Assembly (NCBI GenBank): GCA_004017535.1
Contig: SAJS01000005.1
Coordinates: 1 to 64,000, forward strand
DNA from: Mesorhizobium sp.
GTDB taxonomy: Bacteria > Pseudomonadota > Alphaproteobacteria > Rhizobiales > Rhizobiaceae
DNA: 64,000 nucleotides
Direction of reading: 5' to 3'
Made by a program: the position numbers and the translations under genes. Below, one piece after another: positions 22,937-25,796 of this stretch (positions within the stretch are counted from its first letter, which is position 1; every line of letters begins with the position of its first letter). The notes beneath the pieces are model-generated. The model worked only from the letters and a program-made list of their open reading frames with translations. It had not been told where the DNA came from and ran no database searches.

Positions 22937-24034
22937 ATGCCTGCCGAGATCCGCAAGGCCCGCGCGTCAGACGTCGATGACCTCGCCGCCATCGAGAAGG
23001 CTGTTTTTCAGGGCGACAGGCTCTCGCGCCGCTCCTTCCGCCAGTTCATCGAACGCGAGACCGCCGAGATGCTGGTGGCTGAGAACGAGGGCCGGGTCGC
23101 CGGTTATGCGGTGGTGCTGTTTCGCAAGGGCAGCGGGGTGGCGCGGCTCTATTCCATCGCTGTCGGTCCCTTCTTCGGCCGGCTCGGTATCGGCCGGCTT
23201 CTGCTCGCGGCCGCGGAAGAGGCGGCCTTCGAGCACGACCGTCTGTTGCTGCGCCTCGAAGTGCGCGAGGACAATGATCGGGCCATCCGCATCTACGAGC
23301 AGGCCGGCTATCGGAAACTGGGCCGCGAGCCCGACTACTACGAGGATGGCGCGACCGCGCTGCGCTACGAAAAGACGCTGCGCGGCGATACGCCCACGGC
23401 AACCAAGGTGCCGTTCTACCAGCAGACCTGCGAGTTCACCTGCGGTCCTTGCTGCCTGATGATGGCGATGGCGAATTTCGACCGGGGCTTCGTGCCCGAC
23501 CCGGTCATGGAAATCCGCCTGTGGCGCGAGGCGACCACGGTCTTCATGATGTCGGGTCCGGGCGGCTGCGAGCCCTTCGGCCTGGCGGTCGCCGGCTATG
23601 AGAGCGGGCTTGCCGCCGAGATATTCGTCTCGTTCTATGGCGCGCTGTTCCTGCAGTCGGTGAGGAGCGAGGACAAGCGCCGGGTGATGGAGCTTGCCCA
23701 GGTCGATTTCCGCCGCCGCGCCGAACTTTACGGCATCCCCGTCAACTACCGTTCATTCGGCATCGGTGATATCCGCCAAGCCCTCGGCGAGGGCAAGCTC
23801 GTGCTGGTGCTGGTCAGCGGCTTCCTTATGTTCGGCAAGAAGGTGCCGCATTGGGTGCTGGCCATCGGCGACGATGGCGACCATATCCTGATCCACGACC
23901 CCTGGGTCGAGGATGAAAGGCAGGAAACCATCCTCGATGCCGCGAACATTCCAGTGCCCTACGACATCTTCATGAACATGGCGCAGTTCGGCCGCGACGG
24001 CTTGCGCGCCGCCATCACTCTGGGAAAACGCTGA
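22937..24034 (+). CDS. GNAT acetyltransferase fused to C39-family peptidase domain
   Basis: The 365-residue protein joins two enzymes. Residues 1-150 form a RimI-like GNAT domain: LYSIAVGPFFGRLGIGRLLL holds the acetyl-CoA loop and NDRAIRIYEQAGYRKLG the late motif. Residues 155-365 form a C39-like papain-fold peptidase with the likely catalytic Cys in EFTCGPCCLMMAM, His in VPHWVLAIGDD and Asp in LIHDPW. All three are present, so the peptidase part looks active. No signal peptide or ABC transporter is attached, unlike bacteriocin-processing C39 proteins. The RimK-type ligase gene begins 3 bases later. A cytoplasmic peptide-modifying role is inferred. Confidence 0.9.
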   Translation: MPAEIRKARASDVDDLAAIEKAVFQGDRLSRRSFRQFIERETAEMLVAENEGRVAGYAVVLFRKGSGVARLYSIAVGPFFGRLGIGRLLLAAAEEAAFEHDRLLLRLEVREDNDRAIRIYEQAGYRKLGREPDYYEDGATALRYEKTLRGDTPTATKVPFYQQTCEFTCGPCCLMMAMANFDRGFVPDPVMEIRLWREATTVFMMSGPGGCEPFGLAVAGYESGLAAEIFVSFYGALFLQSVRSEDKRRVMELAQVDFRRRAELYGIPVNYRSFGIGDIRQALGEGKLVLVLVSGFLMFGKKVPHWVLAIGDDGDHILIHDPWVEDERQETILDAANIPVPYDIFMNMAQFGRDGLRAAITLGKR

Positions 24035-24037
24035 ACA

Positions 24038-25501
24038 ATGACGTGGGTAATCCTCACAGGCAGGCAGAACGATCTCGATCAGGTGGCCACACCCCACAAG
24101 ATCATCACCAACCGCGACTATCTCGCGCATCCGGCGCTGTTCCGCGGCCAGCGGCCGAAAGTGATCAACCTATCGAACAATTACGGCTACCAGAGCCGCG
24201 GCTACTACGCTTCGCTGCTCGCCGGCTCGCGCGGCCATAGGGTGATCCCGACGGTAGAGACCATGATCGACCTGTCGGAGCGCAAGCTTTACGAGCACGC
24301 CCTGCCGGAGCTCGAGCTTGCCTTGAACAAATGCCGCAAGGACCTCGGCGGGACTTTTCCGGCCAAGGTCGCGATCTTCTTCGGCATCGGCCCGTCGAAA
24401 GTGTGGGACCGTTTCGCCAAGCTGTTGTTCGACTGGTTCCGCGCGCCGGCGCTGGAGGTGCACATCAAGGACAGCGCCGAATGGGCCTCGATCCGCAAGA
24501 TCGGCTTCCTGCCGCTCGCCCGCATGACCGAGGACGAGGAAGAGCTCTTCCTGCAATGCCTGGAGACCTACACCAACCGCGAATGGCGCGACACCAAGGG
24601 CCGCACGCCGGCGCGTTATACCTTCGCGACGCTGGTCGATCCGCATGAGGAATTGCCGCCGTCGGAAATTTCCTCGCTGCGCTATTGGGCGCGGATCGCC
24701 GAGAAGATGGGCGTCGAGGTCGAGCCGATCACCAGGAAGGACCTCGCCAAGCTCGCCAATTACGACGCGCTGTTCATCCGCGAGACCACCTCGATCTCCA
24801 ACCACACTTACCGCTTCGCGCGCCGCGCCCAGCAGGAAGGCATGCCGGTGATCGACGACCCGCTTTCGATGATCCGCTGCACCAACAAGGTCTATCTCAA
24901 CGAGCTGATGACCTACAACAAGGTGCCGGTGCCGCCGACCGTGATGATTGCCGGCACCTCCGACTTCGAAGTGGCGGCGCAGACGCTAGGCTTCCCGCTG
25001 GTGCTGAAGATCCCGGACTCGTCTTTCTCGCGCGGCGTCAAGAAATGCGAGAACATGGCGGAGCTGACCAAGCTCGCGACCGAATGGCTGGAAGATTCCG
25101 ATCTCCTGATCGCGCAGAAATTCATCCCGACCGAATATGACTGGCGCGTCGGCGTGCTCGGCGGCCAGCCGCTGTTTGCCGTGCATTATCTGATGGCGAA
25201 GAAGCACTGGCAGATCGTCAACCACAAGGCCAGCGGCAAGCCCGACCAGGGCGGCATCAAGACCTTCACGCTGAAGCAGACGCCGCCGCATGTCGTCGAA
25301 ACGGCTGTGCGGGCGGCAAAATGCATCGGCGACGGCCTCTACGGCGTCGACCTCAAGGAGACCAAGGACGGGGTCTTCGTCATCGAGGTCAACGACAACC
25401 CCAACCTCGATCATGGCTGGGAGGATTCGGGCGAGAAAGACGAGCTCTGGGTGCGGCTGACGCAGTGGTTCCTGGAACGCCTGGAGCGGCCGGAGAAGTA
25501 G
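24038..25501 (+). CDS. RimK-family ATP-grasp amide ligase with RLAN domain
   Basis: The 487-residue protein is longer than classical RimK. The N-terminal 200 residues match the RLAN (RimK-like ATP-grasp N-terminal) type, with PKVINLSNNYGYQSRGYY. The C-terminal ATP-grasp domain has LVLKIPDSSFSRGVKK (nucleotide lysine and glycine loop), IAQKFIPTEYDWRVGVLGG and VIEVNDNPNLDHGWED with the magnesium-binding residues. It should use ATP to form an amide bond between an amino acid and a carboxylate of a peptide, protein or small molecule. The tight spacing to the acetyltransferase-peptidase gene implies a joint pathway. The substrate is unknown. Confidence 0.9.
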   Translation: MTWVILTGRQNDLDQVATPHKIITNRDYLAHPALFRGQRPKVINLSNNYGYQSRGYYASLLAGSRGHRVIPTVETMIDLSERKLYEHALPELELALNKCRKDLGGTFPAKVAIFFGIGPSKVWDRFAKLLFDWFRAPALEVHIKDSAEWASIRKIGFLPLARMTEDEEELFLQCLETYTNREWRDTKGRTPARYTFATLVDPHEELPPSEISSLRYWARIAEKMGVEVEPITRKDLAKLANYDALFIRETTSISNHTYRFARRAQQEGMPVIDDPLSMIRCTNKVYLNELMTYNKVPVPPTVMIAGTSDFEVAAQTLGFPLVLKIPDSSFSRGVKKCENMAELTKLATEWLEDSDLLIAQKFIPTEYDWRVGVLGGQPLFAVHYLMAKKHWQIVNHKASGKPDQGGIKTFTLKQTPPHVVETAVRAAKCIGDGLYGVDLKETKDGVFVIEVNDNPNLDHGWEDSGEKDELWVRLTQWFLERLERPEK

Positions 25502-25523
25502 TCGCCTGATTTGAGGGAACAAA

Positions 25524-25796
25524 ATGCTGTTCTTCGTGATCGAGGATTTCCACGGCGCGGACCGCAAGGAGATCTACCGCCGCTTCCGCGACAAGGGCCG
25601 GCTGAAGCCGGATGAGCTTGTCGTGCATCACAGCTGGATCGCCGGCGATATGAGCCGCTGCTTCATGCTGGTGGAGGCCGAGGATGCGACGGTGCTGCAG
25701 CGCTGGGTCATCGAATGGGCGGATTTGGTCGAGTTCGAAATCATTCCCGTGGCCAACAGCAAGGACATGGTCGCGGCGCTTGCCGGGCACCTGTGA
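25524..25796 (+). CDS. DUF3303 family protein
   Basis: A 90-residue soluble protein beginning MLFFVIEDFHGADRKEIYRRF, with HHSWIAGDMSRCFMLVEAED in the middle. This is the DUF3303 pattern, a small ferredoxin-like alpha/beta fold of unknown function. It starts 23 bases after the ligase gene and is probably the third gene of the GNAT-C39/RimK operon. A GAGGGAA ribosome site precedes it. It might be a dimeric accessory or binding protein; nothing in the sequence shows catalysis. Confidence 0.82.
   Translation: MLFFVIEDFHGADRKEIYRRFRDKGRLKPDELVVHHSWIAGDMSRCFMLVEAEDATVLQRWVIEWADLVEFEIIPVANSKDMVAALAGHL

Follow-up and report, generated by a model that had tools for sequence, protein, structure and literature searches.

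A Mesorhizobium cassette of GNAT acetyltransferase, optional papain-like domain and RLAN–RimK ligase, and its candidate role in making N-acetylated peptides

Introduction

Proteins joining a GNAT acetyltransferase to a papain-like peptidase were reportedly associated with a RimK-like amidoligase by Iyer et al. in 2009. Such a cassette is the subject of this report: on a 64,000-nucleotide stretch of Mesorhizobium sp. DNA (GenBank assembly GCA_004017535.1, contig SAJS01000005.1, positions 1 to 64,000 of the forward strand; hereafter the window), a gene fusing a GNAT domain to a C39-like DUF3335 domain is followed by the gene of an RLAN–RimK ATP-grasp ligase. Members of DUF3335 are often fused to GNAT domains, which might act as peptide ligases or acetylate, and are treated together with C39, BtrH_N and phytochelatin synthase as related papain-like families (PMC10318531). 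For operons combining R2K ATP-grasp and GNAT genes, it has been proposed that the ATP-grasp enzyme ligates a peptide and the linked GNAT supplies an acyl cap (PMC4431377). In the system for the osmolyte N-acetylglutaminylglutamine amide (NAGGN), a single synthetase with GNAT and ATP-grasp parts N-acetylates glutamine and couples a second glutamine (PMC8070244), and RimK with RimB forms a ligase–protease pair adding glutamates to ribosomal protein S6 and removing them (PMC11957791). A graspetide survey gives C39 peptidase–ABC transporter proteins as top families at ATP-grasp loci and states that a peptidase is not typically encoded at those loci (PMC8939145).

The literature search found no demonstrated function for the cassette, which is a member of a predicted and, as far as found, uncharacterised kind of system. 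A sequence-only reading of the window had taken the two genes and a following DUF3303 gene for a peptide-modifying cassette, which would synthesise and trim a modified peptide or add residues to a protein and remove them, and had pointed to comparative-genomics proposals of this kind, with which PMC10318531 and PMC4431377 agree. The link between GNAT, C39-like domain and RLAN–RimK is real and conserved, with the catalytic residues kept; the peptidase lies outside the core, and the DUF3303 gene is probably a local passenger. Both functional proposals stand, and the first is tentatively favoured in the narrower form that the pair may make an N-acetylated short peptide, which the optional papain-like domain may break down.

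Conservation of the cassette across genomes

The open reading frames (ORFs) and domains of the cassette in the window are the following:

22937..24034, + strand: GNAT–DUF3335 (C39-like, papain-like) fusion protein of 365 amino acids (ORF call, Pfam, alignment)
22937..23386, + strand: GNAT domain of RimI/Naa10 (N-alpha-acetyltransferase) type, about residues 1-150 (NCBIfam, structure and fold matches)
23408..24022, + strand: DUF3335 papain-like domain with Gln163, Cys169, His305 and Asp321 (Pfam, alignment)
24038..25501, + strand: RLAN–RimK ATP-grasp ligase of 487 amino acids (ORF call, Pfam, relatives, alignment)
24113..24553, + strand: RLAN domain (profile match)
24884..25414, + strand: RimK/LysX-like ATP-grasp domain (Pfam, structure and fold matches)

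ORF calls and Pfam agree with the earlier description, in which the ligase gene starts 3 bases downstream of the fusion gene and is followed by the DUF3303 gene. The association was followed through 398 genomes drawn evenly from Pseudomonadota, the phylum of Mesorhizobium. RLAN occurred in 72 of them, which makes this uncharacterised system, probably one that forms amide bonds, a common one in the phylum; DUF3335 occurred in 58. Of the 398 genomes, 57 held both against 10.5 expected (Fisher p 1e-53, a value that ignores kinship and overstates the association because related genomes are not independent), with the two within 5 kb in 55 of the 57 (exceptions G193 and G006). Sixty loci were fetched, of which 54 hold RLAN and come from the 75 RLAN places in the sample. 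In 53 of these 54, RLAN had a GNAT or GNAT-C39 gene within 1.5 kb, and the pairs were oriented divergently (26), co-directionally with GNAT first (19) or RLAN first (6), or convergently (2). This adjacency, kept despite reshuffled gene order, argues for joint function.

The GNAT neighbour lacked DUF3335 in 17 of the 53 loci (16 by script call, plus L108, where the ORF exceeded the script's length limit, yet its genome, G177, has no DUF3335), which places the peptidase outside the core. In L105 the gene touching the ligase gene encodes a separate GNAT, with a GNAT-C39 gene further away, and in L119 and L124 the GNAT is fused N-terminally to RLAN–RimK. The core is thus GNAT plus RLAN–RimK, with the peptidase domain optional, and a vague guess at peptide modification becomes a question about two enzymes. 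Among the close relatives of the window locus (the best 80 of 311, 77 of them titled Mesorhizobium), GNAT adjoins RLAN in all 80, and 78 have DUF3335; L080 and L081 match over GNAT only. GNAT-only members stand in the GNAT tree both within DUF3335-bearing groups (L126, L080/L081) and in separate groups. This suggests either repeated loss of DUF3335 or its acquisition after the earliest branchings followed by loss, in a tree with many open forks. Selection on all three ORFs among close relatives is purifying, the median ratio of nonsynonymous to synonymous substitution rates (dN/dS) being 0.085 for GNAT–DUF3335, 0.068 for RLAN–RimK and 0.165 for DUF3303 (78, 80 and 71 comparisons, respectively).

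Domains and conserved residues

Both GNAT (Acetyltransf_1, 64 bits) and DUF3335 ('Peptidase_C39 like', 252 bits, cut-off 25, residues 158-362, C-terminal to GNAT) were found by Pfam in a single protein, as in the predicted cassette. Gln163, Cys169 and His305 are invariant in 24 aligned sequences, and position 321 is Asp in 22 and Glu in 2. We take these residues, and the conserved ATP-grasp residues given below, to be catalytic. The Cys, His and Asp ascribed to the fused peptidase are therefore retained, and a loss of catalytic residues in most relatives, named in the sequence-only reading as grounds against it, was not seen. Where present, DUF3335 is more strongly constrained than GNAT (median dN/dS 0.052 against 0.117; 77 close relatives). 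A Peptidase_C39_2 match of the window protein stayed below threshold (18 of 24 bits), and a double-glycine bacteriocin peptidase was rejected, as the Pfam scan gave neither PF03412 (Peptidase_C39) nor a transporter domain. In the predicted model, the first GNAT strand lies at residues 4-7; the C39 domain had a predicted local distance difference test score mostly under 50, because the covering sequences usable for modelling were close relatives, and gives no fold evidence.

The kinship of DUF3335 with C39, BtrH_N and phytochelatin synthase (PMC10318531) would also allow an acyl- or transpeptidase of the BtrH or phytochelatin-synthase kind, which builds the product rather than breaking it. This is rather improbable: with the domain missing at 17 of 53 loci, the basic product can probably be made without it. 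The poor C39 model speaks for neither side. Away from RLAN, extra DUF3335 genes occur in the same-genus genomes G274 and G197 (L130:8745-9839, L131:8633-9694, L132:7-897), those of L130 and L131 with a strongly diverged GNAT part. The sole genome of the 58 with DUF3335 and no RLAN (G008) encodes a DUF3335 protein without GNAT (L133:8620-9321), beside a pyridine nucleotide-disulphide oxidoreductase gene.

The best NCBIfam match of the window GNAT was rimI at 79.7-82.4 bits, under the cut-off of 86.4, and membership of the RimI S18 acetyltransferase family was accordingly rejected; the cassette GNAT of L118 scores 88.2 bits. N-alpha-acetyltransferases head the solved-structure matches of the domain, and Ard1/RimI-type proteins its fold matches.

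In the ligase, Pfam placed RLAN (131 bits, residues 26-172) and the RimK ATP-grasp domain (38.9 bits, residues 283-459) above their cut-offs, and the ATP-grasp residues Lys324, Glu450 and Asn452 are invariant in 29 sequences. Its closest relatives come from M. sp. ORS3359 and other Mesorhizobium records. The nearest families are LysX, ArgX and RimK, and the protein falls below every listed NCBIfam cut-off, with LysX_arch on top (88.6 bits against 275.6); 5k2m is among the nearest folds. The RimK S6 ligase family was rejected on missed cut-offs (87.5 of 143.4 bits for TIGR00768, 23.9 of 331 for NF007764). RLAN–RimK probably synthesises amide bonds, to judge by its domain type and conserved residues. 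A search by sequence found no solved relative of the RLAN part. Model quality is high mainly over the ATP-grasp region, and RLAN confidence is mostly 60-79 for residues 1-78 and mostly under 50 for residues 79-191; owing to this low confidence and to full-length Foldseek matches dominated by ATP-grasp, no fold relative of RLAN could be named.

A minimal pair in viral contigs

The IMG/VR search gave nine viral loci (L142-L150) with ligase-family matches. Four of them hold a GNAT gene that runs into the start of an RLAN-less, RimK-like ATP-grasp gene:

L145:5558-6870: viral GNAT and RLAN-less ATP-grasp pair
L146:5499-6906: viral GNAT and RLAN-less ATP-grasp pair
L147:5493-6861: viral GNAT and RLAN-less ATP-grasp pair
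L148:5585-6846: viral GNAT and RLAN-less ATP-grasp pair

Pfam checks covered L145, the L146 GNAT and the L147 ligase. Genes for portal, terminase or baseplate proteins are found in L142, L143 and L145, and the viral nature of L146-L148 rests on the IMG/VR collection. Against a profile of bacterial cassette GNATs the viral four scored 83-141 bits, compared with 63 for Escherichia coli RimI and 32-61 for the other GNATs of the Mesorhizobium genome, the weakest (L148) being only moderately above RimI. The four viral ligases formed a group of their own in the ligase tree, with E. coli RimK far outside, although the long branches make the placement unsure. The ligase of L150 (L150:5998-7158) keeps part of RLAN and groups with that of Legionella adelaidensis (93/98). 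L144 gives match figures identical to those of L143, and L149 begins within the matched gene. Some phages appear to carry a stripped-down version with GNAT and ATP-grasp, the smallest version of the system.

Further viral searches with query A1 gave no match and with query A4 the same contigs again; the L145 ligase retrieved only its own contig among viral contigs and nothing among named phages (tblastn, E 1e-8). The window ligase matched six named-phage records, in alignments covering less than half of it at 24-29% identity. No publication reporting the viral pair was recognised among those listed by the literature search. Beside the pairs of L145 and L146 stand proteins of about 100 amino acids (L145:5005-5310 and L146:7039-7341), similar by eye; they have no Pfam family, that of L145 has no PHROGs family, and a single search matched only the query itself. 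In L143 an ATP-grasp ligase gene (L143:5977-6912) lies between terminase and portal genes.

Neighbouring genes

The third gene of the originally proposed cassette is the following:

25524..25796, + strand: DUF3303 protein of 90 amino acids, a local neighbour probably outside the system (Pfam, locus comparison)

The DUF3303 assignment scores 93.8 bits in Pfam, and the gene is present in 71 of the best 80 relatives. It was not found in the 60 wider loci, some of them from the same genus (phmmer, E 1e-5), and its dN/dS exceeds that of the other two ORFs; it was rejected as a third component and is probably a Mesorhizobium-local passenger.

The four Pfam-matched neighbours in the window are DUF2339, an ECF sigma factor, LysR and a fatty-acid desaturase, and no exporter is among them, in keeping with the earlier statement that an ABC exporter is absent. 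Upstream, DUF2339, the sigma factor and a gene we take to be its anti-sigma factor were matched in 77, 78 and 78 of the best 80 relatives, and downstream LysR and the desaturase in 61 and 62. As the flanking genes are kept in most close relatives, the cassette occupies an old chromosomal place in a genome of 6.86 Mb (73 contigs). Between 22650 and 25900, six terminator-like sites were counted against a shuffled mean of 2.5; they are mostly intragenic and may reflect chance or composition.

The sequence-only reading had seen no precursor peptide gene nearby, and the wider search agrees: around the 54 RLAN loci, none of 937 ORFs of 20-90 amino acids within 800 bp showed homology outside its own family (blastp-short with low-complexity filter, E 1e-3, settings that would miss lineage-specific or distant precursors). 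A maturation locus for a ribosomally synthesised and post-translationally modified peptide with an unseen precursor, as the C39 peptidase–ABC transporters of the graspetide survey might suggest (PMC8939145), is therefore extremely improbable, the more so as exporters are missing among the matched window neighbours and DUF3335 is distinct from the double-glycine C39 family. In a clustering by sequence, the core pair and out-of-frame shadows of it were all that recurred across most families; at loci without a long GNAT-C39 gene (the 211 neighbour ORFs of the other loci entered the clustering), no family occurred in more than 5 of 103 neighbour ORFs (among the 25 of 119 families listed).

Two partners are confined to certain lineages. 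By sequence clustering, DUF155 and DUF2817 each occur in 7 of the 60 loci (families f38 and f39, DUF155 also f40), and Pfam confirms three DUF155 and two DUF2817 locus proteins. DUF2817 (E under 1e-60) shares 25 genomes with RLAN against 9.0 expected, a modest 12 against 5.5 outside f38 with the total not adjusted. Its likeness to M14 hydrolases comes from weak PDB matches, MpaA (E 0.0046) standing behind a xylanase inhibitor (0.0026). DUF155 (E up to 1e-15) shares 21 of the 398 genomes with RLAN against 6.9 expected, and 9 against 3.9 outside f38 (p 0.007). The DUF155 family has ribosome-linked relatives, so that its co-occurrence with RLAN bears on a reading in which the cassette modifies the ribosome, acetylating S18 in the manner of RimI and glutamylating S6 in the manner of RimK, on neighbouring 30S proteins. 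The upper rimI score of the window GNAT is level with that of the other best candidate in its genome (82.9 bits), and the host genome has no match above the RimK family cut-off. Such a role is nonetheless highly improbable: the window proteins miss the family cut-offs of both rimI and rimK, and that other candidate gives the host a second RimI.

Proposed function

In the preferred reading, the GNAT would acetylate an amino acid or short peptide on its alpha-amino group, as its domain type allows. RLAN–RimK would activate a carboxylate with ATP and join a second amino acid. The expected product is a short N-acetylated peptide, in which Glu or Gln may be present. Where present, DUF3335 may hydrolyse or trim this product with its Gln/Cys/His/Asp set, and RLAN, absent from most of the viral versions, may position the acceptor.

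The NAGGN operon, too, includes a peptidase gene, and the cassette would repeat its logic with different proteins. Several observations favour an acetylated peptide. GNAT is the usual partner in varied gene orders, and the L119 and L124 fusions share the domain order of NAGGN synthetase. In G006 (L114:296-11309) a complete NAGGN trio (synthetase 944 bits, amidotransferase 939, M42 peptidase 614) is followed on the same strand, after one unnamed ORF, by GNAT-C39, DUF2817 and DUF155 genes. In Legionella adelaidensis (L152:41-3232) the RLAN–RimK gene precedes GCS2 and N-formylglutamate amidohydrolase genes, which we take to encode small-molecule glutamate enzymes. A conserved precursor peptide was not found, and the minimal pair occurs in viral contigs.

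A number of observations weigh against this reading. The ligase is nearest to RimK and LysX/ArgX, whose substrates are protein C termini or carrier proteins, and the GNAT to protein N-terminal acetyltransferases. No significant BLAST similarity links the cassette ligase to the NAGGN ligase (E 0.16), so that the cassette can be said to work like NAGGN and not to belong to it. The two systems are linked in one of the nine genomes holding both and are independent across genomes (9 shared against 6.5 expected, p 0.26). GNAT is not next to RLAN in L086, where the GNAT-C39 gene is on another contig; it is absent among the 12 annotated genes of the L. adelaidensis record and was not seen in front of the ligase in the viral L142, L143 and L150. 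A plasmid RLAN copy of Pseudomonas aeruginosa has no annotated GNAT neighbour, in an incomplete gene table (3 of 11 matching plasmid records were examined, one of them lacking annotation). Lastly, DUF155 adjoins the cassette in some lineages.

Other ties to NAGGN were rejected. The synthetase family, TIGR03103, matches the GNAT alone, with 19.2 bits against a cut-off of 569; it does not match the window ligase up to E 0.01 and has no match at E 1e-100 in the host genome. The nine shared genomes show no mutual exclusion, and the asparagine synthase beside RLAN in L118 is best matched by the XrtA/EPS type (569.8 bits, cut-off 816.9).

The main rival is protein tagging, in which the ligase would add residues to a protein C terminus or side chain, the papain-like domain would remove them and the GNAT would cap. 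The protein-directed nearest relatives of both enzymes, the RimK/RimB precedent of glutamates added and removed (PMC11957791) and the pair in viral contigs agree with it. We consider it somewhat unlikely, since no target gene was seen to travel with the pair across most families, the eraser is missing in 17 of 53 loci and the Legionella variant stands with GCS2 and N-formylglutamate amidohydrolase. A broader and unlikely idea is that GNAT plus ATP-grasp is a general two-enzyme device for a new class of acetyl-capped peptides or tags. In bacteria this device would have gained RLAN and, in many cases, a papain-like eraser; some phages would carry its minimal form, with overlapping genes, to alter the infected host or their own particle.

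Comparison with known systems

Like the NAGGN system, the cassette would combine GNAT and ATP-grasp chemistry with a peptidase, and the GNAT-then-ATP-grasp order of the synthetase recurs in the L119 and L124 fusions. It differs in having a papain-like domain instead of the M42 peptidase (TIGR03106), in having RLAN, and in that no counterpart of the amidotransferase (TIGR03104) is among the four Pfam-matched window neighbours. The pairing of a RimK-type ATP-grasp ligase with a peptidase is shared with RimK–RimB, although RimB is a retropepsin-like aspartic protease, whereas the cassette has a papain-like domain along with GNAT and RLAN. The LysX/ArgX amino-group-carrier ligases provide the best NCBIfam match of the cassette ligase and are among its nearest folds, but the ligase is far below their family cut-off and bears an RLAN domain. 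With the R2K operons the cassette shares the idea of an ATP-grasp product capped by a GNAT; those involve other ATP-grasp families (R2K.2, R2K.3), and RLAN and DUF3335 are not mentioned in the available part of that source (PMC4431377).

Compared with the association credited to Iyer et al., GNAT rather than the peptidase is the usual partner here, and GNAT–RLAN–RimK fusions and RLAN-less viral pairs are added, points that may already be noted there. The present analysis adds that GNAT and RLAN–RimK form the core and that the peptidase is optional; it sets aside DUF3303 and a precursor peptide, and it adds the minimal viral pair.

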